DNA of 44,158 nucleotides from NCBI GenBank assembly GCA_902789425.1, contig CADANX010000001.1, positions 144,206-188,363 on the forward strand, given 5' to 3'. The stretch is from an uncultured Erysipelotrichaceae bacterium. Its GTDB lineage: Bacteria > Bacillota_I > Bacilli_A > RF39 > UBA660. Positions 12,862 through 27,706 of this stretch are shown here, piece by piece; within the stretch, counting starts at the first letter, position 1, and each line of letters starts with the position of its first letter. The notes beneath the pieces are model-generated. The model did no database searches, was not told where the DNA came from, and worked only from the letters and a program-made list of their open reading frames with translations. The translations under genes and the position numbers were made by a program.

Positions 12862-15800
12862 ATGATTAACAATAATAATGATGAAGATATCGAAATAATA
12901 GAAGAACTTGACAATCAAGAAGAATTGGTTGAAGATAGTCCTTCTTTTCAGCCTTCATATGATGCTACTGGTGCTGATTATGGTTCAAAAATAAGAGCAA
13001 ATCATACTAGTCCTGCTTCAATAGCTGGAACCGCTGCTGATATTAGTGCTAAAGGTGTAAAAGCTGCTGGTAATGTTGCTGATGCTGCTGGAAAAACTGC
13101 TCAAGTTACAGGAAAAGCAATGAAAGTTGCCGGAAAGGGTGCACAAGCAGCTGGTAAAGGAATAGAAGCTGCTAGTACTGCAGTAGGTGGTGCACTTAGT
13201 GCAATTCCAGTTGTAGGTGGTGTTTTGGGCGGTGCTGTTAAGGCCGCAGGTACTGGTGTTGGAAAAGGAACACAAGCTTTAGGAAAAGGTCTTGAAAAAG
13301 GCGGAGATGTTACTGAAAAAGCAGGTAAAAAAGCAGAACAAGCTGGTAAGAAAGCAAAAGAAAAAGGTAAAAAATTACAAGATAGTGCCGATAGAATAAA
13401 AAATGCTAAAGGTAAAAATTATAAAATGCCTAAAATAGGTGAAAGTGCTGTACCTAAAAAGGACGATGTTAAAGATAAAGCTAATGAACTTGGGGATAAA
13501 GCCAAGGAAGGAGCAAAAAAAGGTTTAAATGATTTAAAAGACGGAGTAAAAGATGCTGCAAAAGATATGGCAAAAGCTGGTGATATTACTCAAAAACTTA
13601 AACCTGAAAAATTTGATTTTGTAGAACAAATTAAGAAATTAAAAAGAAGACTTATTCTTTTTGGAACATTAGCTGCAATTGCATTAATGCTTGTTGCTAT
13701 TATCATTGAAGTTGTTATGTCGCCTATTTTAGAAGTTGTTGAATCACTTATGCAAAAATGGGATACAATAAAAATTGTTGAACAAAAAGGTGATAATTTA
13801 TACGCAGGTTTTGGTTTTAAAACAACAAAACAAGCATTTTTAGATGAAGTTGATTATTTATATGAAAGATATGATGAACAACTTGATATTCCATTAATTA
13901 TGGCAACTTTATATTATACTGAACAAGGATCTTATGATGAGGATTTTGGTTCATTACCAGATGTATCTGAAGATGGAGTAGATGCAAAAGCTGCAGTAGG
14001 GTCCATTAAATCATTAATTAAAAGTAGATATGAAAATGTGGATGAGAATGGTTTAAGATATACAGCTGGTAAAATATATAGATTACGAAGACTTGCAAGA
14101 AATCAGATGGAGTCACCTAATGGTATTGGTGATGCTATTCCAACAGCTGAAGAAAATATTCCATTATCAGATTTTGTTGAAGAAATGAAAGATCAATTAA
14201 GTGATGATGTCGTAAATTTATTCACCTCTCTTCCTAGTCTAACTGAGGGTGTTGATTATTTTAGAAAATTATATGAATTAATTGAAATTTATGATGGCGA
14301 AGAAACACTTGATACCACTACAGCTGGTAATAGTGAGATACTTCAAAGATGTATATATTTACTTAATTCTATTTTAGTTTTTTCTGGCGATATTACTGAT
14401 ATTCATTGGAGTGTAACTGAAGGTTTCACAGTTGATGTAGCTCGCTTTGAGGCTAATGATGATAACTACAGAAAATATTTAAAAGAATATTATATCCCAC
14501 ATATGCCTGAATTTAAACCTATGTTAGGTAAAGCAAAAGATAGAGATAAAGAAATAGATCATATAATTAGTGGTATATACCAATATGCTGAAGATTTTGA
14601 TGGAATGTTTGATTACAATAGACATGCTGATGCTGAATCAACTGATAATACTTGTGAAGGTACTATTGAACCTGATTTAGTTGAGTATTTAAAAATCCCA
14701 GTTAATGGAACTGAATTTAATTTTGATGAAGAGACAGGTTTTGGTATTTCTGGAGGAGTAAAAAATAATGGTGTTGATTTAACTGCTGATTCATCTGGTA
14801 TAACAGAAGGTGCTGAAGTTAAAGCAATTTACGGTGGAGAAGTTACTATTCATAATAATAACTGTAATACTTCAACAAATCCTTCATGTGATCCAAAAGG
14901 TAATTATGTTGAAATAAGTCATACAGTAAAAGCAACAGATAATACTTATGAGTTAATATCATATTATACTCACTTAAAAGATATATCAGTTGCTAATAAT
15001 AAAACTGTTAAAAAAGGTGATGTTATAGGACATGTAGGATCAACTGGTGATGTTACTGAACCAACACTTCATTTTGAACTTAAAAAGCAAAGTGGAGTAT
15101 ATTTAAATCCAACAAATTTATTTATTCCATGTGATTATCCAGATTATAGTGAGACAGGTGAACTTGTTGGTAAAACAGATCAAGAGAGAGTATGGTGTTA
15201 TTTAACAAATACATTAAAATACACTAAAGGAAAAGCAGCAGCTGCAATGGGTAATATATCTGTTGAGTCAGGTGGAACTTTTGCAGGATGGATTGTTCAA
15301 GGTGACACAAATGATTCAGAACATAAATTTTCTAAAGAATACACAGCAAAAGTCGATTCTGGAAAAATATCTAAAAGTGATTTTGTTCATAGGGGACCAG
15401 GCGGAGGAGGATATGGTATTGTTCAATGGACCTACTATACTAGAAAAGATAAATTATATGATTATATTAAAAAAGATTCTAGTAAGAGTATTAGTGATTT
15501 AGAACAACAACTTAAGTTTTTCCACAAGGAATCAAAAGGATATAAATGTGGTACTTATGAAAAAACTGAAGATGGACTTAACTCTATTAGATCTGGAGCA
15601 ATTAACTTTATGACATGTTATGAAGGTCCTTCTGATCAATCATCCACAGCAAAAAATCATAGAGCAGATTTAGCAGTAAGTATCTATAATAAATATAAAA
15701 AGACTAAATGTGCTAGTTCAACTAAGATTGGAAAAATAACTAAGACAACTACAAGTACTAAAGTTAAAAGTACAGATTCTAGAGAATTAAAAATTGAAAA

Positions 15801-16209
15801 ATATATTACTGCACTTAAAGAAATAGCAGATGATGATTCAGTTGGATATGCAGCAAATTCTGGAACAAGAAATATGAATCCTAATGTAGATTGTTCATCA
15901 TTTGTATATTATGGATTATATAATTCAGGTATGATTTCAAAAATGTCTTGGCCATTTTCTACAGGAACTATGGGTCCAATTTTAGAAAAAGCTGGATTTA
16001 AGAAAATGTCTTATTCTGAAAAAAAATTAAAGAATGGTGATATACTTGTTAATTCTCATCATACTGCAGTTTATCTAGAAGGTCATAAACAAATTGCAGC
16101 TCATACAGATTATGATGGAAAAAATGGAGATTCTTTAGGTACTGAAGTAAATGTATCAGAATATAAGAATCATAGATATGGTTATGAATCTATTTATAGA
16201 TTAAAATAA
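12862..16209 (+). CDS. VirB1/PrgK-like wall hydrolase: degenerate M23, phage-type lysozyme and NlpC/P60 domains
   Basis: A 1115-residue protein. An acidic N-terminus leads into an Ala/Gly/Lys-rich amphipathic repeat region (about 40-235, for example KAAGNVADAAGKTAQ), then one membrane helix at about 262-290, so the rest is outside. Around 607-757 is an M23/LytM fold, but the first zinc ligand His is Asn635 (NNGVD in place of H-x-G-x-D) and the catalytic His of H-x-H is Thr735; only Asp639 and His737 remain. Around 770-947 is a phage-tail-type lysozyme (MGNISVESGG, putative catalytic Glu802; GGYGIVQWT). The C-terminus (973-1115) is NlpC/P60-like, with Cys1011 in DCSSFV and a HHTAVYL His. It likely opens peptidoglycan locally for the secretion channel, as VirB1 and PrgK do. 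GGGTGG precedes the start. Confidence 0.85.
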   Translation: MINNNNDEDIEIIEELDNQEELVEDSPSFQPSYDATGADYGSKIRANHTSPASIAGTAADISAKGVKAAGNVADAAGKTAQVTGKAMKVAGKGAQAAGKGIEAASTAVGGALSAIPVVGGVLGGAVKAAGTGVGKGTQALGKGLEKGGDVTEKAGKKAEQAGKKAKEKGKKLQDSADRIKNAKGKNYKMPKIGESAVPKKDDVKDKANELGDKAKEGAKKGLNDLKDGVKDAAKDMAKAGDITQKLKPEKFDFVEQIKKLKRRLILFGTLAAIALMLVAIIIEVVMSPILEVVESLMQKWDTIKIVEQKGDNLYAGFGFKTTKQAFLDEVDYLYERYDEQLDIPLIMATLYYTEQGSYDEDFGSLPDVSEDGVDAKAAVGSIKSLIKSRYENVDENGLRYTAGKIYRLRRLARNQMESPNGIGDAIPTAEENIPLSDFVEEMKDQLSDDVVNLFTSLPSLTEGVDYFRKLYELIEIYDGEETLDTTTAGNSEILQRCIYLLNSILVFSGDITDIHWSVTEGFTVDVARFEANDDNYRKYLKEYYIPHMPEFKPMLGKAKDRDKEIDHIISGIYQYAEDFDGMFDYNRHADAESTDNTCEGTIEPDLVEYLKIPVNGTEFNFDEETGFGISGGVKNNGVDLTADSSGITEGAEVKAIYGGEVTIHNNNCNTSTNPSCDPKGNYVEISHTVKATDNTYELISYYTHLKDISVANNKTVKKGDVIGHVGSTGDVTEPTLHFELKKQSGVYLNPTNLFIPCDYPDYSETGELVGKTDQERVWCYLTNTLKYTKGKAAAAMGNISVESGGTFAGWIVQGDTNDSEHKFSKEYTAKVDSGKISKSDFVHRGPGGGGYGIVQWTYYTRKDKLYDYIKKDSSKSISDLEQQLKFFHKESKGYKCGTYEKTEDGLNSIRSGAINFMTCYEGPSDQSSTAKNHRADLAVSIYNKYKKTKCASSTKIGKITKTTTSTKVKSTDSRELKIEKYITALKEIADDDSVGYAANSGTRNMNPNVDCSSFVYYGLYNSGMISKMSWPFSTGTMGPILEKAGFKKMSYSEKKLKNGDILVNSHHTAVYLEGHKQIAAHTDYDGKNGDSLGTEVNVSEYKNHRYGYESIYRLK

Positions 16210-16280: not shown

Positions 16281-18545
16281 ATGAAATTAAAGTTAAGAGC
16301 GGATAAAAATGACTTAATAGTATTTGGTGTTGTTTGTTTATTTTTACTTTATGTTATAGCGGTTTGTATAGCAAACGTAACATCAATACTTCAAACAGGA
16401 TTAGCTACAGGGCTTAATCCTATTTATGCGTTTTATCCAAATAAAATTTTAACTACTTTTGCTATTTGGATAGCAGCTATTGGTGCTTTAATCGGTTCAT
16501 CATCTTCATATTTCTTCTCGTTTGAAAAAGGGTTTGGATATACTAGTGAGAAAAAAGAAGATGGTTATTCAAGATGGGCAAAAGCAAAAGAAATAGAAAC
16601 TGCAAAAGACGTAGTTAAAGTTCCGTTTATGGAAACAAAAGTCAAATGTGGTGGTACACCAGTTACTTATGATAAAGATAATGCTTATATTGATAATTCT
16701 AATATGCATACACTTGTTATAGGTGCTACTGGTTCTGGTAAAACAGCAGGTGTTATTAATCCGACTATGAAAATGCTTATGAAAGCAAGAGAATCTATAG
16801 TTATTACTGATCCTAAAGGTGAAATATATGAAGATAACTATAAACTTTTAAAGGATTTAGGATATGACATAGTTGTTCTTAATTTCCGTGAACCACAAAA
16901 AGGAACTTGTTGGAATCCTTATGACCTTCCTTATAAATATCAAAAAGAAGGTAATTACGATAAAGCTAATGAATTATTAAATGACTTATCAACAAATATT
17001 GTTGTAGATGGACAAAGTCAAGATCCATTTTGGCAAAATGCTGCAGCTGATTATTTAACAGGTTTAGGTCTTGCTTTATTTAATGATGCTGAATATGATC
17101 AAATTAATATTAATAGTATTAATTTAATGATAAATCAAGGTGAAGAAAAATATGGTGCATCAACATATATGAAAGAATACTTTAAAATGCAAGATCCAAC
17201 TTCACCAGTTGCTATTAACTTAGCTGGTACTGTTACTACTGCTGATGAAACTAAAGCTGGTATTATGACAGTATTACAACAAAAAGTTAAAACACTTGCT
17301 GTTACAAGAAATTTATCAGAAATGCTTTCTAAAAATGAATTTGATATGTCTACTATTGGTGAAAAACCAACAGCATTATTCTTAATAATTCAAGATGAAA
17401 AAACTACATATCATAGCTTGGCTACAATATTTATTAAACAATGTTATGAAAGTTTAGTATCTGTTGCTTATAAACATGGTGGAGCTCTTCCAGTAAGGGT
17501 TAATTTCCTTCTTGACGAGTTTGCAAATATGCCTAAAATTAAAGATATTTCAACAATGGTTACAGCAGCGCGTTCAAGACATATAAGATTTACTTTCATA
17601 ATTCAAAACTTTGCACAACTTGATAAAACTTATGGTAAGGAAGATGCACAAACAATTCGTGGTAACTGTGTTAACACTATATACTTATTAACAGGAGAAC
17701 TTAGTGCGCTTGAAGAAATAAGTAAATTATGTGGTGATAAACTTGTTAGAGTAGGTAAAGATAAAAAAGAAGAAACAAGACCGCTTGTTACAATCTCAGA
17801 ATTACAAAGAATGAAACCTGATGAGTACGTACTTGTTAGACATAGATGTCCTCCATATAAAGGTAAACTTAAAATGGATTACAAATCAGACTTAGGTTTT
17901 GGTATAGGTTCTGAATTATATGGAAAAGATGTAGTTTACCCTGAAAGAGAAATGGGAGAAGTTAAAGTATTTGATATAAAAGAATTTGTTAAAAAGAAAA
18001 AACAAGAAAAAATGGGATCATTACCAAATCAAAATCCATTTGGTCCAATGGGTGGAATGCCAAAACCACCAATGCCTAATCCTTTTGGAGGAGGTTCTAT
18101 GCCATCAGATTTTGATTTAGATAAAATGATTAAAGATATAGATAAAAAAATAGCTGAACTTGAAAAAGAAGAAGAGGAAGAAAAAAAGAAAATAGCAGCT
18201 AAAACAAGAAATGTAGCACCATCAAATACTCCTGCAGCAAATGATGATGTTATTAAGCCAACAATTCTTGATGATGAAACATATAACAAATTAATTAATC
18301 AAGCTAAAGAACCAGAAGTTAAACCAATGGCTTCTGTAAGACCTGAAGAAAAGTCAGATATTGTTGATAGTAATTCAATTAACTTTGATAACTTTAGTAT
18401 TAAAGAACCAGAGGTTAAACCAGAACCTATTAATGAAGTTAAGAAAGAAAATACTGTGGAAAAAACTGAAGAAAAAGTTCAAGACAACAACAATGATACT
18501 GATGATTCTGATGATTTCTTTGATGATTTCTTCTTTGAAGAATAA
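16281..18545 (+). CDS. virD4: VirD4/TraG-like T4SS coupling ATPase
   Basis: A 754-residue coupling protein that would select substrates and feed them to the channel. Two N-terminal membrane helices (about 13-33 and 54-76) precede the motor domain. Walker A is GATGSGKT at 148-155; Walker B is FLLDEF with Asp412/Glu413; VITDPKGE and TAARSRHIRFTFIIQNFAQLD are further family marks. After about residue 575 the tail is unusual: a Gly/Pro/Met-rich stretch (NPFGPMGGMPKPPMP), a Glu/Lys coiled segment, and a C-terminus dense in Asp and Phe (DDFFDDFFFEE). The acidic aromatic end could contact partners; that is inference. It has its own -10 box and is closed by a strong terminator. No relaxase gene is nearby. 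Confidence 0.92.
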   Translation: MKLKLRADKNDLIVFGVVCLFLLYVIAVCIANVTSILQTGLATGLNPIYAFYPNKILTTFAIWIAAIGALIGSSSSYFFSFEKGFGYTSEKKEDGYSRWAKAKEIETAKDVVKVPFMETKVKCGGTPVTYDKDNAYIDNSNMHTLVIGATGSGKTAGVINPTMKMLMKARESIVITDPKGEIYEDNYKLLKDLGYDIVVLNFREPQKGTCWNPYDLPYKYQKEGNYDKANELLNDLSTNIVVDGQSQDPFWQNAAADYLTGLGLALFNDAEYDQININSINLMINQGEEKYGASTYMKEYFKMQDPTSPVAINLAGTVTTADETKAGIMTVLQQKVKTLAVTRNLSEMLSKNEFDMSTIGEKPTALFLIIQDEKTTYHSLATIFIKQCYESLVSVAYKHGGALPVRVNFLLDEFANMPKIKDISTMVTAARSRHIRFTFIIQNFAQLDKTYGKEDAQTIRGNCVNTIYLLTGELSALEEISKLCGDKLVRVGKDKKEETRPLVTISELQRMKPDEYVLVRHRCPPYKGKLKMDYKSDLGFGIGSELYGKDVVYPEREMGEVKVFDIKEFVKKKKQEKMGSLPNQNPFGPMGGMPKPPMPNPFGGGSMPSDFDLDKMIKDIDKKIAELEKEEEEEKKKIAAKTRNVAPSNTPAANDDVIKPTILDDETYNKLINQAKEPEVKPMASVRPEEKSDIVDSNSINFDNFSIKEPEVKPEPINEVKKENTVEKTEEKVQDNNNDTDDSDDFFDDFFFEE

Positions 18546-18573
18546 GAGTGAAAAAAAATCACTCTTTTTTTTC
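18544..18573 (+). terminator. Strong intrinsic terminator after the coupling-protein gene
   Basis: Perfect eight-base-pair stem AAGAGTGA / TCACTCTT with an A-rich loop, followed by eight T's, and a second long T run further on. Confidence 0.9.
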
Positions 18574-18644: not shown

Positions 18645-21600
18645 ATGAAGATGAAACAAAATAAAAGAAAAATATTGGCTTATTTTATAGCTTTTATAGC
18701 TTTAGCTTCTTTCGTAGGAAATATAGTTAAGGCCGAAGACGAAGTTCCACACGTGTTTGGATTTTATGCATATGACTATGATCCAATAACAGAAGAAGGA
18801 ACTGAAGATGAGTATCAGAATGAAGGTACTGTTGAGCCAGGAAAAGTAATAGCACTTGATGTTACTTATGAAGTTGGTTCTGATACTAAAACAGGTGTTT
18901 CAATAGGTCTTATTTATGATGATACAGTTTTAGATCCAATATTAGATCCAGATGAAGGAACTATCTATTATGATACATATCCAGAAAATACAAACCTTGG
19001 AGGTATCTGGCCACCTACTGGTACAGGTAAACAAACTAAATTACAAACTCCATGGAATTATAGTTCTTTAGGACAAGTTGGTAATAAATTGAATTTAGTT
19101 GTAACTGATAGTTCAGGAACACATCCACTTGAAACTTCTGGTAATATCGCAACATTCTATTTTAAAGTAAAAGAAGACGCTCGTGCAGGAACAACTTTTA
19201 AATTCCAATATGATCCAGATAGCACAATGCTTTCATATTCACCAGCTACTGAAAGAGAAGAATTAGAATTAACTGTTTATGGAGAAGCAAGTAGTGATGC
19301 TACTTTAGATACACTAGTTGTTAAAAATGGAGCTACTGAATATACTTTAGATCCAGCATTTACTTCAGGAACAACAACAAAAACATTTGAAACAGTCGTT
19401 CCAAATAATGTAAGTTCAATTGATATTGAAGCAACAGCTAAAGATTCAACTGCATCAGTAACAGCAGGAACTGGTTCACATTCATTGTCAGTTGGAAATA
19501 ATTCGTTTGACGTAGCAGTAACTGCAGGTGATGAAACTACAGTTGAAACATATCAAGTTAAAGTTTATAGATTAAGTAATACAGCAACATTAAGTAATTT
19601 ATCATTATCATCTGTTGATATTGGTGAATTTAAATCAGAAACAACATCCTATACAGCACTAGTTCCATATAGTACTAGTTCAACAACAATAACAGCTACT
19701 AAATCAGATTCAAAAGCAACAGTTGTTATTGATGGAGGTAATGTATGGTCACTTACTAATACAGGTGCTACTACAAATGATAAAGATATAGTAGTTAATG
19801 CAGAAAACTGTGATTCTAAATATAGTACAGTACCAGGTAATACATGTACATTTAAAAAATATTCAGTATCTATTACAAGAACAGCTGCATCTACAAATGC
19901 AAACTTAGCAACATTAACAGTTGACGGAACAGCTCTATCAGGACTTCCAAATACTACTGAATTTGTATTAGAAGATGTTGCAAATAATAAAACTTCAATA
20001 AATATACAAGCAACAGTTGCTGATATAAATAAAGCAACAATAACTACAACATTAGGAAATAAAAATTTGTCAATTGGTGATAACTCAATACCAATTACTG
20101 TTAAAGCAGAAGATGGTGTAACAACTAAAACTTATACAATTAAAGTAAGAAGATTAAATAATGATAATAAATTAGCTTCATTAACTGTAACTTCTAATCC
20201 AGCAGGAAGTATTAGTCCATCATTTAATCCAAGCGTATTTGATTTTTATACTTATACAGCTCCAGCTGATGCAACTGAAGTAACAATTAGTGGAACTTTA
20301 AGTGATTCTACTAATGCAACTATACTAACTGATTTATCTCAACCATTTAATATAGTAGATAATCCAGTTGTTAATGTAACTGTTCAAGCAGAAGATGGAA
20401 CACAAGGAATATATGTAATTAAATTAGTAAGAAGTAAATCTACTAATAATAATTTAGCTTCATTAGGTGTAGATGGATATACAATTTCTCCAGCATTTGC
20501 AGCAGGTACTCCAAATTATACATTAACAGTACCAGCTTCAGTATCTAGTGTTAATGTAACAGCAACTTTAGATGATTCAAGAGCTTCAATAGTTAGTGGA
20601 ACAGGTAATCAAGATTTAACTTATGGTGATAATAATATTGAAGTTAAAGTAAAAGCTGAAGATAACTCAACTAATTCTTATTTCATAAAAATAACAAGAG
20701 AAAAGAAAAATATAGCTACATTATCAGACTTAAAAGTTGATGGTGTTACAGTAACTGGCTTTGCTTCAGATACTCCAGAATATACTTTACCAAGTGTAGC
20801 GTTTGAAAAGAGTACAATTAAAATTGAAGCAACTGCAACTGATTCAGATGCAACAATTTCAGGTACTGGTGATAGTATAGCGTTAAGTACAGGTGATAAT
20901 AAATTATATGTAACAGTAACAGCTCATGATGGCATTACACAAACATCTTATATATTAAATATAGAAAGAGCTCAAGATTCTAATGCATATTTAAGTGATT
21001 TAAAAGTTAATGGAGTAACAATTGATGGATTTAATAAAGAAACACCAACTTATTCATTAACTGTTGAAAACAATGTAACATCTTTAACAATAACTCCAAC
21101 TACTGAATCTACAGCTGCTACAGCAGTAGTTTCAGGAAATTCTGGATTTGTTACTACAGGAAATAATGCAATTGATATTTTAGTAACAGCAGAAGATGGG
21201 ACTACTAATACATATACAATTAATGTAACTAGAAAGAAATCATCTAATTGTGATTTATCTGGTATAGGATTAAGTAGTGGTGCTTTAGATCCAGCATTTA
21301 ATGCAGATAAGATTAATTATACTGTTAATGTTTCAAGAACAGTTGAAAATATAACAATTACTCCAACTCTTGCTGATTCAACTGCATCATATACAATTTC
21401 AGGTCCATCATCACTTGAACTTGGTGATAACGTATTTGAAATTAATGTAACAGCAGAAGATGGAACTTCAACTAAAAAATATACAGTTGTAGTTAATAGA
21501 AATAAATCTTCAAATGCATATTTAAGTGATTTAAAAGTAGATGGTTCTACTGTTACAGGATTTAATAGAGAAACTCCATCTTATACAGTAAATGTAGCTA

Positions 21601-24600
21601 CTGATGCAACAAAAATTACAATAGCTGCTACTGCTGAAGATTCACTTGCAAGTATTACAGGTGATGGTGAAATTACATTAACTGATGCAACTGCATATGA
21701 TGTAATAGTAACAGCAGAAGATGGAACTACAAGTTTAACATATACAATTAATATAAATAGATTACAATCAAGCAATAGTTTATTACAAGGATTATCTATT
21801 GCTCAAACTGGTATTTCTCCAGCATTCGATCCAACTAAAACTGAATATACAGCATCCGTTGATTATTCAGTTACTAGTATAGATATTATTGCTACTGCTG
21901 CTGATTCAAAAGCAACAGTAACAGGAGCTGGTACTAATATAAGTTTACCTACTGGTACTACAAGATTTACTATTAAAGTAATAGCAGAAGACACAAGTTT
22001 TACTGAATACTTTATAGATGTAACAAGAGCAAAAAATAATAATGCATTATTATCAAATATTACAGTAAGTGAAGGAACATTGGATCCAAAATTCGATGCA
22101 GCTACAACTTCATATACAGTAGAAGTAGATAATGATGTTAAATCTATTACAGTAACAGGTTATTTACAAGATAGCGCTGCTACTTTAACTGGAAATGATA
22201 CTTATACATTAGATCCAGGTGATAATCCAATAGATCTTATTGTATTAGCAGAAAATGGAACAACAACTGAAACTTATACTATAGTTGTAAAAAGAGCAAG
22301 ATCAGCTGATGCAACATTAAAATCATTAACTGTATCAAGCGGTACTTTAGATCCAATATTTGCTCCTGGAGATAAAGAATATGCAATAACAGTAGATAAC
22401 GAAATTGAAAATGTAACTATTACTGCTGAACCAAATAGTGATGAAGCATCTGTTTCTATCTCAGGTAATAATAATTTACCTGTAGGAACTCAAAGAGCTA
22501 CAATTACAGTAACAGCAGGAGATGGATCAATAGATTATTATTATATTGATATAACTAGAAATCCTTCTAGTAACAATTTCTTATCAGCATTAAGTGTAAC
22601 TGATGTAAATGGTACTGAATATATTTCATTTACAGATAATACAGTAACTTCATATAATGTTACTGTTGAAAATGACATTGACAAAGTAACAATTAGTGCA
22701 ACAGCAGATGACTTAACAAGTACAGTAGAAGGTACAGGTGAAAAAACTAATTTACCTGTTGGGGAAGTTACAGAATTTGATGTCATAGTAACTAGTGCTG
22801 CTAATATACCTAGAACATATAAAATTAAAGTTTATAGAAAACCTAATTCAAATAGTAATTTAGGAAGTTTAACTGTAAGTAAAGGTACATATACTCCTTC
22901 ATTTGCAGTAGATAAATATAATTATGAAATGACTCTTGATTCTGATGATACTGAACTTACTATAACAGCTACTCCAGAAGTAGCTTCATCATCAGCAATT
23001 ATTACTCAAACAAGTATGACAGGTGCTGAACCAGTATCAGGAACAGGAACATTTACTTTAGCAGCTGGAGCTAATACATTCCAAATAACAGTAAATGCAG
23101 CAGATGCAACATCTTCTACATATACATTAACTGTTAATAGACCAGCTAGTACAAATGCAACACTTACATCATTATCAGTTTCAGAAGGTGACTTAGATCC
23201 AGAATTCTCACCTAATCATACTAAATATACGGTTTCAGTACCAAATACAACTGATTTAATAACTATTACAGCAGTTGGTGCAGCTGGAACAAAAGTTACT
23301 GGTGATGGAATAAAATCATTAAGTGTTGGAAAACAAACATTTGATATTATAGTAACAGCAGAAGATGGAACAACTACTGAAAATTATTTTATTGATATAA
23401 CTAGAGATGGTTCTAGTAATAATAAATTAAGTGATTTAACTATTGATGGAACTACAATTGAAGGATTTAGTCCAGATGGAGATCAATATACAATTAACGT
23501 TCCTAATGATAAAGATACTGTAGAGATTGGTGGTTCAGTTGCTGATCCTACAGCAGAAATAACTGCAGGACTTGGTTCACATACATTAAGTACAGGTAAT
23601 AATGTAATAGATGTACAAGTTACAGCAGAAAATGGTGATGTTAATACATACCAAATTACAATTAATAGAGCTAAAAATTCAAATGCTTACTTAAAAACAT
23701 TAGTAGTAGCAGAAGATGATCTTTCACCAGAATTTAATAAAGAAACTACAACATATTCAGTTACAGTACCTAATGAAGTAAGTTCATTAAATATAACAGC
23801 TACTCCAGAAGTAACAACTTCAGGTGTAACTATATTAAATAATAATTCATTTACTGTTGGTTCTAACACTGTAACAGTAAGAGTTACAGCAGAAGATGGA
23901 ACTTCAAAAAGAGATTATGAAATTAATGTAACAAGACAACCTTATGCAGATAACTTCTTATCATCATTAACAGTAAAAGGTAGCGATGATGTAGATTATA
24001 CTTTATCACCAGAATTTAATAAAAATACTTTAGCATATGAAGTTGCTATACCTTCTTCATTAAGTTCAGTTAATATCGCTGCAACATTAGAAGATTCATC
24101 AGCAACAATAACAGGTGATGGAAATGTTCCAATTTCATCATTACCTCAAACTCAAAAAGTTAAAGTAACAAAAGATGGAATTACAAGAACATATAGAATT
24201 AAATTTATACCTGGTTTATCAGGTGATAATAAATTATTAAGTTTAGGTGTTAATCCAGGAACACTTACACCAGCATTTAATAAAAATACTGATCGTTATA
24301 AAGTAACATTACCAGAAGGAACAACTTCAATTAATGTATCTGCAACTGCTAATAATTCAGATGCAGTAGTAATTGGAACTGGTAGTCATACTTTAACTGC
24401 TGGTAAAAATAATATTGAAGTATCAGTAACAGCTGCTAATGGTAGCGTTAATACATATAGTATTGAAGTAACAGTATCAAACGGTGAAACTGAAAATAAA
24501 TTAGATACATTAACAGTTTCAGAAGGAACACTTACACCAGTATTTGACCCTGATACTAATTTATATGAAGTAACAGTAGATTCTACTACATCAACAATTT

Positions 24601-25424
24601 CAATTGATGCTACAGGTTCAAATACAATTACTGGTCTTGGTGAAAAAACATTAAGTGAAGGTAATAATATATTTGAAGTTAAATCAATAGATGATAATGG
24701 AAATGCAAATACATATCGTATAGTAGTTACAAAACCACTATCTGACCCAACAGCTATAATGGCTCCAGAACTTGCATATCTAGCTATTGACAAATATGAT
24801 ATATCTCCATCATTTGATCCAAGTATGACATCATATTCTGCAACTCTTGCAGGTGAAAGTGCAGCAACAGTTGTAGCTTATGCTAAGAACCCTGCTGATA
24901 CAGTTGTCGTTACTGGAAATGATGATTTAAATAATAACAATAATATAACAATTACAGTAACTAATACGAATGGTGATTCAAAAATATATTCAATTTCAGT
25001 TTCAACATTCTTAAATAAATTAAAAACAAATGTATATCCACTTGATAATACATATGTAGATAAAGTACCAGCATTTAGATCAGTTGGTGATATTAAAAAT
25101 GACTTTGTAAATCCAAATGAATACTTAAAAGTATATGATGCTGACGGTGCATTACTTTCTGATGATGCTGTAGTTGGTACAAATTATAAAATTTCACTTG
25201 AAAAAGATGGAGTTGAACATGATTATAAATATTTCATAGTAATTAAAGATGTTAATGGTGATGCAGATGTATCGATATCAGATATAGTATTAGTAAGAAG
25301 ACATATCTTAAATAACATAGTACTGTCAGAAGCTCAGTTAAGAGCAGGTATGGTAAATGATGATACCGAAGTTGATGTATCAGACTTAATATTAATAAGA
25401 AGAACTATATTGGAGCGTGAGTAA
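18645..25424 (+). CDS. Giant secreted surface protein: cohesin-like N-terminus, ~21 cadherin-like beta-sandwich repeats, C-terminal dockerin
   Basis: About 2,259 residues. A signal peptide (ILAYFIAFIALASFVGNIVKA) is followed by a cohesin-like beta domain at about 33-215. From about 216 to 2123 I count 21 units of 85-100 residues of the cadherin-like beta-sandwich type (PF12733), each running N-x-x-L-x-x-L-x-V to V-T-A-E-D-G-x-x-x-x-Y-x-I-x-V-x-R; the last is divergent. The C-terminus is a type-I-like dockerin: D2202 opens DVNGDADVSISD with all calcium positions, and a second loop at 2236 (MVNDDTEVDVSD) has Met at the first position. It has no membrane or sortase anchor. The start may be ATG 18651, better spaced from GGAGG. 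It is coupled to the membrane-anchored cohesin-like gene that follows, so dockerin-cohesin docking is the likely attachment. An extended adhesin or stalk is the inferred role. Confidence 0.85.
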   Translation: MKMKQNKRKILAYFIAFIALASFVGNIVKAEDEVPHVFGFYAYDYDPITEEGTEDEYQNEGTVEPGKVIALDVTYEVGSDTKTGVSIGLIYDDTVLDPILDPDEGTIYYDTYPENTNLGGIWPPTGTGKQTKLQTPWNYSSLGQVGNKLNLVVTDSSGTHPLETSGNIATFYFKVKEDARAGTTFKFQYDPDSTMLSYSPATEREELELTVYGEASSDATLDTLVVKNGATEYTLDPAFTSGTTTKTFETVVPNNVSSIDIEATAKDSTASVTAGTGSHSLSVGNNSFDVAVTAGDETTVETYQVKVYRLSNTATLSNLSLSSVDIGEFKSETTSYTALVPYSTSSTTITATKSDSKATVVIDGGNVWSLTNTGATTNDKDIVVNAENCDSKYSTVPGNTCTFKKYSVSITRTAASTNANLATLTVDGTALSGLPNTTEFVLEDVANNKTSINIQATVADINKATITTTLGNKNLSIGDNSIPITVKAEDGVTTKTYTIKVRRLNNDNKLASLTVTSNPAGSISPSFNPSVFDFYTYTAPADATEVTISGTLSDSTNATILTDLSQPFNIVDNPVVNVTVQAEDGTQGIYVIKLVRSKSTNNNLASLGVDGYTISPAFAAGTPNYTLTVPASVSSVNVTATLDDSRASIVSGTGNQDLTYGDNNIEVKVKAEDNSTNSYFIKITREKKNIATLSDLKVDGVTVTGFASDTPEYTLPSVAFEKSTIKIEATATDSDATISGTGDSIALSTGDNKLYVTVTAHDGITQTSYILNIERAQDSNAYLSDLKVNGVTIDGFNKETPTYSLTVENNVTSLTITPTTESTAATAVVSGNSGFVTTGNNAIDILVTAEDGTTNTYTINVTRKKSSNCDLSGIGLSSGALDPAFNADKINYTVNVSRTVENITITPTLADSTASYTISGPSSLELGDNVFEINVTAEDGTSTKKYTVVVNRNKSSNAYLSDLKVDGSTVTGFNRETPSYTVNVATDATKITIAATAEDSLASITGDGEITLTDATAYDVIVTAEDGTTSLTYTININRLQSSNSLLQGLSIAQTGISPAFDPTKTEYTASVDYSVTSIDIIATAADSKATVTGAGTNISLPTGTTRFTIKVIAEDTSFTEYFIDVTRAKNNNALLSNITVSEGTLDPKFDAATTSYTVEVDNDVKSITVTGYLQDSAATLTGNDTYTLDPGDNPIDLIVLAENGTTTETYTIVVKRARSADATLKSLTVSSGTLDPIFAPGDKEYAITVDNEIENVTITAEPNSDEASVSISGNNNLPVGTQRATITVTAGDGSIDYYYIDITRNPSSNNFLSALSVTDVNGTEYISFTDNTVTSYNVTVENDIDKVTISATADDLTSTVEGTGEKTNLPVGEVTEFDVIVTSAANIPRTYKIKVYRKPNSNSNLGSLTVSKGTYTPSFAVDKYNYEMTLDSDDTELTITATPEVASSSAIITQTSMTGAEPVSGTGTFTLAAGANTFQITVNAADATSSTYTLTVNRPASTNATLTSLSVSEGDLDPEFSPNHTKYTVSVPNTTDLITITAVGAAGTKVTGDGIKSLSVGKQTFDIIVTAEDGTTTENYFIDITRDGSSNNKLSDLTIDGTTIEGFSPDGDQYTINVPNDKDTVEIGGSVADPTAEITAGLGSHTLSTGNNVIDVQVTAENGDVNTYQITINRAKNSNAYLKTLVVAEDDLSPEFNKETTTYSVTVPNEVSSLNITATPEVTTSGVTILNNNSFTVGSNTVTVRVTAEDGTSKRDYEINVTRQPYADNFLSSLTVKGSDDVDYTLSPEFNKNTLAYEVAIPSSLSSVNIAATLEDSSATITGDGNVPISSLPQTQKVKVTKDGITRTYRIKFIPGLSGDNKLLSLGVNPGTLTPAFNKNTDRYKVTLPEGTTSINVSATANNSDAVVIGTGSHTLTAGKNNIEVSVTAANGSVNTYSIEVTVSNGETENKLDTLTVSEGTLTPVFDPDTNLYEVTVDSTTSTISIDATGSNTITGLGEKTLSEGNNIFEVKSIDDNGNANTYRIVVTKPLSDPTAIMAPELAYLAIDKYDISPSFDPSMTSYSATLAGESAATVVAYAKNPADTVVVTGNDDLNNNNNITITVTNTNGDSKIYSISVSTFLNKLKTNVYPLDNTYVDKVPAFRSVGDIKNDFVNPNEYLKVYDADGALLSDDAVVGTNYKISLEKDGVEHDYKYFIVIKDVNGDADVSISDIVLVRRHILNNIVLSEAQLRAGMVNDDTEVDVSDLILIRRTILERE
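19291..25014 (+). repeat. Tandem array of about 21 coding repeats (~270 bases each)
   Basis: Each unit encodes one cadherin-like beta-sandwich. Units differ clearly at protein level, but the segment encoding VTAEDG recurs nearly unchanged: GTAACAGCAGAAGATGG starts at 21183, 21447, 21708 and 23352, and also at 26172 in the next gene. Confidence 0.8.
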
Positions 25425-25425
25425 T

Positions 25426-27174
25426 ATGAGAAAAATGAATAGAGTATTTAAATTATTAACAATTATAATATTAAATGTATTATTTACATTTAATGTTTAT
25501 GGAATAGAAAAGCAACCATATGTAGCTGAATTCACAGCTCCAGCTAGTGCTAAACAAAATAGTGAATTTACTGTATCATTTACAGCAAAATCAATCGAAG
25601 CTGGTTTTGATGGATACCAATTCGTTGCCAGCTTTGATGATACAAAATTAACACTTGTATATGATGAAGAAAATGATACTTATGGTGAAGTAAATCTACT
25701 TAATAAATGGGATTTATTCTTAACACCTAATTCATCTAGTGTATTCTCAGTTATGGGTAGTGATTTAAAAGCACCAGCTTTTGAAAAAACATCAGATACA
25801 AAATGTATGACAATGAAATTTAAAGTACTTCCAAACGCATCAGGAAGTACAACAATAACTTTTTCTGAAATAAAAGGATCTAGAGGTAATGGTAATCCAT
25901 TAATAGCAGAAGGATCATCAGTAACAATAAATATTACTGATGGTTCTACTGTTAATCCAACTAAATCTAGTGATGCAACACTTAAATCATTAGGTGTAAG
26001 TAGTGGATCATTATCACCAGCATTTAGTCCTTCAGTAGATACTTATAAAGTATCAGTTGGAAATGATGTTACAAAACTTGATGTTAGTGCAATAACAAAT
26101 GATCCAAAAGCTAAAGTAGCTATTTCTGGTAACACAAATTTATCAGTTGGTAAAAATAATGTTATTGTTCAAGTAACAGCAGAAGATGGAACTAAAAAGA
26201 ATTATGTAATTGAAGTAACAAGAGCTTCAGGAAGTGGAAGCACAACATATAAACCTACATCAAAATCAAATAATGCTGATCTTAAAAACATAACTGGTAT
26301 ACCTGGTCTTAACTTTGATCCAGATAAAACTAATTATGATGTTGTAGTACCATTTGATGTAACAAATATTAATGTAGGTGCAACACCATCATCTTCAAAA
26401 GCAAAAATAGTTATTTCACCAACAAAATTAAGTGATTTAAAAGTAGGCGAAACACAAACAGTTACTATTTCTGTTAAAGCAGAAGATGGAACATTAAAAG
26501 TTTATACTGTTAATGTTAAAAGAAGTCAATACAAGAGTGAAACAGATCTTGAAAAATTAAAAGTAGATGATACTGAATTAAATCCAAATTCAGATGGTGA
26601 ATATAAAATTACTATTCCAAGTAATAAAACTTCAGTATCAGTTAGTGCTATACCTAAGAGTCAAGGTTCAACAGTTAAAATTATTGGTAATAATAATTTA
26701 AAAACTGGTAATAATAAAGTAATAGTACAAGTTACTGATAAAAATGGATTTACTAAGAGTTATATAGTAAATGTAGAAAGACAAAAAGAATTATCATTCT
26801 TCAACTTTGTTGACAAATTCTGGTATTTATTCTTACTATTACCATTCTTAATTATGTTAGTATTATTATACTATTATGATAAAAATAAAAAATATCTTGC
26901 AGTATTAGATGAAAAAGAAGACGAAGTTCGCGAGAAATTAGTTGAAAATTATTCTCCTACTAATATTGACAATAAAGTCTATATAAGTTATAATTCTAAT
27001 AACAGCATAGGATATGTAGATAACGACGAAACAGACTCTTTAGAAGCAAATGTTGACAGACTTTTAAATGATAGTTCTATACCTGAAGTAGAAAGAACTG
27101 TTAATTATGTTAAAAAGGGTGTTGACGACATCGAAAGAGAATATGAAATAAAAGAAAAATTAAGAAAGAAGTGA
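25426..27174 (+). CDS. Membrane-anchored cohesin-like protein with three cadherin-like repeats
   Basis: About 582 residues. A signal peptide (VFKLLTIIILNVLFTFNVYG) is followed by a cohesin-like beta-sandwich at about 25-185 (VAEFTAPASAKQNSEFTVSF ... KCMTMKFKVLPNASGSTTITF). Three PF12733-type repeats follow to about 450, then a membrane helix (FWYLFLLLPFLIMLVLLYYY, ~465-484) and a charged cytoplasmic tail of ~100 residues. With the membrane helix near the C-terminus, the cohesin sits farthest from the cell. The preceding gene ends in a dockerin one base before this start, so the two products are an obvious candidate pair. ATG 25426 is chosen over GTG 25417 because the TTGGAG site is only one base from the latter. 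Cohesin identity rests on fold pattern, not a search. Confidence 0.78.
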   Translation: MRKMNRVFKLLTIIILNVLFTFNVYGIEKQPYVAEFTAPASAKQNSEFTVSFTAKSIEAGFDGYQFVASFDDTKLTLVYDEENDTYGEVNLLNKWDLFLTPNSSSVFSVMGSDLKAPAFEKTSDTKCMTMKFKVLPNASGSTTITFSEIKGSRGNGNPLIAEGSSVTINITDGSTVNPTKSSDATLKSLGVSSGSLSPAFSPSVDTYKVSVGNDVTKLDVSAITNDPKAKVAISGNTNLSVGKNNVIVQVTAEDGTKKNYVIEVTRASGSGSTTYKPTSKSNNADLKNITGIPGLNFDPDKTNYDVVVPFDVTNINVGATPSSSKAKIVISPTKLSDLKVGETQTVTISVKAEDGTLKVYTVNVKRSQYKSETDLEKLKVDDTELNPNSDGEYKITIPSNKTSVSVSAIPKSQGSTVKIIGNNNLKTGNNKVIVQVTDKNGFTKSYIVNVERQKELSFFNFVDKFWYLFLLLPFLIMLVLLYYYDKNKKYLAVLDEKEDEVREKLVENYSPTNIDNKVYISYNSNNSIGYVDNDETDSLEANVDRLLNDSSIPEVERTVNYVKKGVDDIEREYEIKEKLRKK

Positions 27175-27178
27175 TATT

Positions 27179-27706
27179 ATGGCAAAGAAAAAAGAAATTA
27201 AAGAAGAAGTAGTTGTAGAAGAAAAAGTTGAAAAAAAAGAAGCTAAAAAAGAAGTAGCAAAAACTCTTCCAAAAAGTGAAAGAATTACTAAAGCTGTTAA
27301 AGTTTGCGTTTTATCTGTAGTCTTAATCGTTGTTCTTGTAGTTGTATTTGTAGTTGCTAGACCAGGAAGAAAATCTTTAGAAGATAGTTTAAATTCAAGC
27401 TTAAAATCTATGGGAGAAACTTTCTATACTGATTTCTATTATACTGAAATCTCTAAAAACAAATCTAAAGCTGAAGTTTCAGAATTCTTAGAAAAATTTA
27501 AAGATGTAGGAATCAAAGTTAATCTTGATAACTTAGAAAGATATAACGATGGAAAGAATAAAGAAGAAATAGCTAAATTTAAAAATAAAGATGGTAAAGC
27601 ATGTAACAAAAATACTACACAAGCAGTTATTTATCCAAAAAGTCCTTATGGAAAAACAGACTATACAGTTGATGTAGTACTTGACTGTGGATTTGATAAA
27701 AAATAA
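27179..27706 (+). CDS. Single-pass membrane protein of unknown function, end of the surface-protein operon
   Basis: A 175-residue protein I do not recognise. Residues 1-40 are very Lys/Glu-rich and cytoplasmic. A membrane helix spans about 41-62 (VCVLSVVLIVVLVVVFVVA), followed by a ~110-residue domain probably outside the cell, with two cysteines (in GKACNKN and VLDCGFDKK) that could form a disulfide. The external part has alternating helix and strand character and ends immediately after the second Cys. It lies 4 bases after the cohesin-like gene, with GTGATATT as the gap, so it is cotranscribed, and is closed by a terminator. It may be an accessory to the surface complex; this is inference from position only. 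Confidence 0.7.
   Translation: MAKKKEIKEEVVVEEKVEKKEAKKEVAKTLPKSERITKAVKVCVLSVVLIVVLVVVFVVARPGRKSLEDSLNSSLKSMGETFYTDFYYTEISKNKSKAEVSEFLEKFKDVGIKVNLDNLERYNDGKNKEEIAKFKNKDGKACNKNTTQAVIYPKSPYGKTDYTVDVVLDCGFDKK

Follow-up and report, generated by a model that had tools for sequence, protein, structure and literature searches.

The stretch of DNA analyzed here (44,158 nucleotides from the genome of an uncultured Erysipelotrichaceae bacterium, G000; hereafter the window) contains two adjacent genes for surface proteins, P0001 and P0002. Our data make it likely that P0001, a giant secreted protein, is held at the cell by its membrane-anchored neighbor P0002 through cohesin-dockerin binding. Such binding is the textbook glue of cellulosomes; the pair described here is most likely a noncellulosomal surface tether, a variant of known cohesin-dockerin attachment and not a cellulosome. 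The initial annotation of the window had proposed this docking from the two genes themselves, and comparison supports the predicted binding well, as similar gene pairs recur throughout the family and the putative plug and socket co-vary. Taken together, pair recurrence and co-variation carry far more weight than this one locus does.

P0001 and P0002, with all their parts, are encoded on the forward strand. P0001 is the product of an open reading frame of 2,259 residues (18645-25424) and comprises a signal peptide, a cohesin-like N-terminus (18834-19202), an array of Cadherin-like repeats (19293-24986), an X-like module (24987-25241) and, immediately behind this module, a C-terminal dockerin (25245-25421). 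Against the Pfam cohesin profile PF00963, for which the curated cut-off is 24.1 bits, the N-terminal domain reaches 27.3 bits and, when isolated, 28.5 bits. The array, presumed to be a stalk, holds at least 21 repeats (PF12733, E 7e-196, 21 stretches). The X-like module was delimited from translations compared by eye and by alignment only, and the same stretch is found again ahead of other dockerins in the family. With a curated cut-off of 22.9 bits for Dockerin_1 (PF00404), the dockerin scored 26.1 bits as an isolated C-terminus, 29.1 bits in the genome-wide profile search and 21.5 bits, just short of the cut-off, in an hmmscan of the whole protein; by sequence it matches the solved dockerins 4uyp (E 7e-5), 2ccl (1.6e-4) and 1ohz (1e-3). 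Checked for Asp or Asn at positions 1, 3, 5 and 12, its first calcium loop (DVNGDADVSISD, 25248-25283) is complete, while the second (MVNDDTEVDVSD, 25350-25385) has Met at position 1. The helix segments of the two dockerin repeats are alike (SDIVLVRRHIL and SDLILIRRTIL), as expected for dual binding, though the second calcium loop is imperfect. P0001 has no membrane or wall anchor of its own: the chain ends in the dockerin, and it has neither a hydrophobic segment beyond the signal peptide nor a C-terminal hydrophobic segment or LPXTG motif. The initial annotation had described the protein in these terms, as 2,259 anchorless residues ending in dockerin-like calcium loops of which the second begins with Met; it had also called P0001 an adhesin, a label that remains a guess because no ligand-binding domain was identified in the protein. 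It had overlooked the cohesin-like N-terminus, the array of at least 21 Cadherin-like repeats and a second dockerin/anchor pair elsewhere in the genome.

A single base (T25425) separates the P0001 stop from the ATG of P0002 (25426-27174, 582 residues), and a ribosome-binding-site-like GGAG lies within the end of P0001 (25412-25415), 10 nucleotides before this ATG; as read from the sequence, it suggests translational coupling of the two genes. P0002 consists of a signal peptide (25426-25503), a cohesin domain that we propose as the receptor of the P0001 dockerin (25504-25959; PF00963, E 1.7e-4), three Cadherin-like repeats (PF12733, E 1.4e-27), one transmembrane helix at about residue 460 (about 26803-26871) and a cytoplasmic tail of approximately 100 residues. 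Both the one-base spacing and this layout had been read correctly from the start. Three comparisons favor a cohesin identity of the N-terminal domain. First, the syntenic orthologue of P0002 in G006 (L049), a second species of the same genus, passes the cohesin cut-off with 37.1 bits. Second, the first match of a family profile built from five sequences (A4), which includes cohesins stronger than P0002 itself, is the cohesin of Clostridium perfringens NagJ (E 3.5e-8), followed by cellulosomal cohesins. Third, an AlphaFold2 model of modest confidence from a two-row alignment has nine strands (pTM 0.60) and finds cohesins at ranks 2 to 9 and 12 of a fold search against the Protein Data Bank (PDB; E 3e-5 to 3e-4), with 2jh2, 2vo8, 6kgf and 2w1n among the best. 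Searches of other collections with P0002 yielded no relative among viral contigs, only three loci among genome contigs, one of them useful (L039), and only matches to the Cadherin-like repeats among plasmids.

The recurrence of the arrangement was assessed from Pfam cohesin and dockerin profile matches in 78 genomes of the family, of which 61 have a dockerin and 38 a cohesin. Twenty-eight of the 55 cohesin matches, in 25 genomes, are located 49 to 158 nucleotides downstream of a same-strand dockerin, where about 0.03 (0.025) would be expected. When loci were fetched, 63 of 83 open reading frames with a C-terminal dockerin were followed, mostly after 3 to 17 nucleotides, by an anchored protein, defined by a signal peptide, a Cadherin-like repeat and a C-terminal membrane helix; several of the remaining 20 are cut by contig ends. 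The giant/anchor pair itself has only two sequenced relatives, one in G006 and one in G007 that is truncated where its contig ends. Between the window and G006, the P0001 dockerins are 25% identical and the repeat arrays 39%, while the P0002 N-domains are 34% identical and the stalks 47%. Docking domains that diverge more than stalks fit the picture given by the autolysin pairs described below.

The commonest dockerin cargo in the family is a SagB-like glucosaminidase (NCBIfam NF052642, with E values of 1e-10 to 1e-25 and scores far below the curated cut-off), often with an SH3_3 domain; other cargoes are papain-like proteases, leucine-rich repeats and bacterial Ig repeats. The enzyme class carried by these dockerins is one of wall hydrolysis and not of plant-fiber degradation; no cellulase or xylanase was found among the dockerin proteins scanned, and for this lack of plant-cell-wall enzymes we rejected a cellulosome. 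Our search of the window's own genome likewise returned no protein with multiple cohesins. The glucosaminidase also qualifies the remark in the initial annotation that no carbohydrate-active enzyme is present, which holds for the pair and fails for the genome. There, on contig C8 (L043), a 657-residue SagB-like glucosaminidase ends in a perfect dockerin (58.8 bits, the best of the genome) and is followed after 9 nucleotides by its own anchor, a membrane protein of 483 residues. In the 1-Mb genome G006 (C2, L095-L096), a reading frame that stays open over about 7,120 residues ends in a dockerin near the contig end, and two dockerin-ended proteins with GLUG motifs (L086:344-3217 in G026, also with an M6 peptidase domain, and L097:2486-5311 in G104), both with dockerins of the DYVxIKN class, have no cohesin anchor behind them.

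Across 55 pairs of the autolysin type, dockerin distances correlate with the N-domain distances of the neighboring anchors (r 0.655). The dockerin correlates less with its own catalytic part (r 0.37) and with its own adjacent X-module (r 0.28), and the anchor N-domain likewise correlates less with the remainder of the anchor (r 0.32). Given the catalytic part and the anchor remainder, the partial r is 0.58, a value equalled in none of 2,000 permutations. The correlation persists among distant pairs, though it weakens in the quarter with the greatest distances, and it survives removal of most of the window's genus. In 52 of the 55 pairs, the class of the dockerin matches that of the N-domain, with nine changes of dockerin class and ten of N-domain class on the tree of the catalytic domains. 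A strict independent-pairs test on well-supported branches left only four pairs, none contradicting the association, and with this number significance is out of reach.

Short Ig-like domains of roughly 85 to 110 residues, which are not Pfam cohesins and contain Cys in some classes, are found at the N-terminus of many anchors in these autolysin-dockerin pairs (L079-L084, L087-L089, L112, L117, L118, L124-L127, L137-L144, L043 and L039). They adjoin canonical dockerins of other recognition classes, each class with its own dockerin motif (DYVxIKNxIM, ADLLRMRQHLL or DFAKxKSHLL), and may possibly be new dockerin receptors. We tentatively suggest, with slightly less than even confidence, a modular dock-and-anchor system in which sockets, the short Ig-like domains included, were swapped repeatedly in step with the recognition residues of the dockerins. 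If so, the receptor folds of dockerins would include, in addition to cohesin, several that are unrelated or strongly reduced, and the giant pair of the window would be one lineage that kept a full-length cohesin.

Considering these data, we propose the following model for the window. P0001 and P0002 would both be exported by way of their signal peptides. The C-terminal helix of P0002 would keep the protein in the membrane, with its cohesin held outward on the three-repeat stalk, and the C-terminal dockerin of P0001 would bind this cohesin, presumably in a calcium-dependent manner. Since P0001 is anchorless and would be bound by its dockerin, its long repeat stalk would project from the cell, where it may act in adhesion. 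The pair would be one instance of a cassette in which the gene for a dockerin-ended cargo is directly followed by that for its membrane-anchored receptor, and which the family would use for several cargoes, mostly the SagB-like glucosaminidase, with papain-like proteases and a leucine-rich-repeat protein as further examples.

Partners need not be exclusive, however. Six dockerin matches were found in the window's genome, and four of these are truncated by contig ends and have no adjoining anchor (L045:1-228, L046:17669-17851, the end of L047 and L048:1-198, on C13, C15, C17 and C18). With these dockerin ends located at contig ends and three of them near-identical (VLGDIDENGLINVTDQT...), several related giant genes were probably merged into one another in the assembly. 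N-terminal parts of large proteins, with ALK/LTK glycine-rich and Cadherin-like domains, are present on C4 (at least 2,999 residues) and C15 (at least 988 residues). Contig C11 (L044:6638-7900) encodes a membrane anchor with a cohesin and Cadherin-like repeats beside hrcA-grpE-dnaK, with no neighboring dockerin; open frames of 415 to 430 residues similar to it occur in most members of the genus, and it may serve the orphan dockerin giants as a receptor. In an open network of this kind, P0002 and the C11 anchor would take any dockerin of the genome, and P0001 would be a scaffoldin-like adaptor with a dockerin protein at its tip. The orphan dockerins and the orphan anchor would agree with such a network, as would the N-terminus of P0001, which exceeds the cohesin cut-off, and six other family genomes in which a cohesin and a dockerin are found at close distance on a shared strand and mostly in a shared frame. 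We nevertheless consider it unlikely, though the best of the alternatives, as the strict gene pairing and the class-by-class co-variation of adjoining partners indicate specific pairs, and as Pfam recognizes no cohesin in the homologous N-terminal region of the G006 giant.

Several points weigh against a docking of P0001 on P0002. The second calcium loop of the P0001 dockerin lacks Asp-1, and a single-sequence AlphaFold2 model of this dockerin reached a pLDDT of only 44 and was not used. The N-terminal domain of P0002 scores 22.2 bits, 2 bits below the cohesin cut-off, so that the profile search named as a check in the initial annotation came out above the cut-off for the isolated dockerin and short of it for the cohesin. 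The other check, structure prediction, gave for the P0002 domain alone the cohesin matches mentioned above from a low-confidence model (pLDDT 61.5), and the first fold match is the CLIPPER domain of a fibrillar adhesin (9ifr). The 83 loci were picked by dockerin matches and include many orthologues, and counts among them are therefore not independent. The co-variation figures come from the autolysin pairs, not from the giant pair, and can be inflated by sequence kinship and by joint exchange of adjoining DNA; the weak correlation of the dockerin with the X-module that adjoins it on the opposite side, the best available control, argues against joint recombination as the whole cause. The low Pfam score, the CLIPPER match and the Met of the second loop could also mean that the P0002 domain is a generic Ig-like or adhesin domain and that the dockerin-like end of P0001 binds another target, such as a wall polymer or the C11 cohesin; we regard this as improbable in view of the clear cohesin of the orthologue, the many cohesins that follow in the fold search, and the gene pairing and co-variation across the family.

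The genes directly upstream of P0001 on the same strand encode TraG/VirD4, a VirB4-like ATPase and a multidomain wall hydrolase of a type IV secretion system (T4SS). In the window, positions 12862 to 16209 encode a 1,115-residue protein of this locus that joins wall-cleaving modules of the Phage_lysozyme2, M23 peptidase and NlpC/P60-like types. The initial annotation was right about this position beside a T4SS-like locus, but the functional link that it drew to a secretion machine was not supported. It is very unlikely that P0001 is a part of the T4SS apparatus or a mating adhesin, comparable to PrgB, the counterpart for pCF10, fixed near the channel by P0002. A terminator-like hairpin with a T-tract (18544-18566, forward strand) directly follows the TraG/VirD4 gene and separates the T4SS genes from P0001. 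A search of 12 genomes of the genus found TraG in 10, and in G006, the sole relative with both TraG and an intact giant pair, the two are on different contigs (C9 and C7, respectively); ordinary genes follow TraG in G005, G009, G006, G010 and G011. Thus, P0001 is unlinked to TraG in G006 and absent behind it in most relatives, and we give little weight to a role as a T4SS component, the link of the giant pair to this locus being positional only. Nevertheless, TraG of G008 is followed by a 4,992-residue surface protein and four dockerin-ended proteins, so the site behind TraG may be a favored place for surface genes. The 4,992-residue protein (G008:C17; L100, L109-L110) is membrane-anchored, and the dockerin proteins stand in tandem and have about 1,250 to 1,330 residues, one being split between fetched pieces; the first of them has papain, lectin-like and Listeria-Bacteroides repeat domains. 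On the other side of the pair, a gene for a small membrane protein (27179-27706, forward strand) directly follows P0002, with homologues behind the same pair in G006 and G007.

In a family with reduced genomes and apparently without cellulosomes, cohesin-dockerin binding would thus serve as a general means of membrane retention, with one adjacent receptor gene per cargo, and would offer a likely way of attachment for giant surface proteins that are otherwise unexplained. As plug and socket co-vary over more than 50 sequenced pairs, they also provide a natural set of candidate orthogonal pairs for decoding dockerin specificity. Our literature search found no description of this cassette, a weak negative given its poor coverage of subscription journals.

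The nearest profile and fold relatives of the P0002 domain are the noncellulosomal cohesins of C. perfringens NagJ/GH84C and GH33 (PDB 2jh2, 2w1n and 2vo8). In that species, cohesin and dockerin are both found on secreted enzymes, whereas the P0002 cohesin is carried by a dedicated membrane anchor. The commonest cargo of the family has a catalytic domain like that of SagB, the glucosaminidase of the peptidoglycan release complex (NF052642); the family enzyme differs in scores that fall far short of the SagB cut-off, in the dockerin at its end and in the separate anchor gene behind it. Cohesin/dockerin adhesin complexes with adjacent cohesin and dockerin domains have been proposed for syntrophic sulfate reducers and anaerobic methanotrophic (ANME) archaea (PMC10553843). 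These are unrelated lineages that share with our proposal a role in adhesion rather than in cellulose degradation, and the parts of that report available to us describe no cassette with co-varying plug and socket (PMC10553843). In its proposed way of working, the pair resembles the cell attachment of the cellulosome in Ruminococcus champanellensis, in which scaffoldin B, ending in an X-module and a dockerin, docks on cohesin E, itself covalently attached to peptidoglycan (PMC7456326). In both cases, a C-terminal dockerin behind an X-type module would dock a large surface assembly on an anchored cohesin. The R. champanellensis cargo, a cellulosome network, binds and digests cellulose, whereas that of the window is the repeat stalk of P0001, with no identified enzyme or cellulose-binding module; and in contrast to the wall-linked cohesin E, P0002 is anchored by a membrane helix and encoded next to its cargo (PMC7456326).

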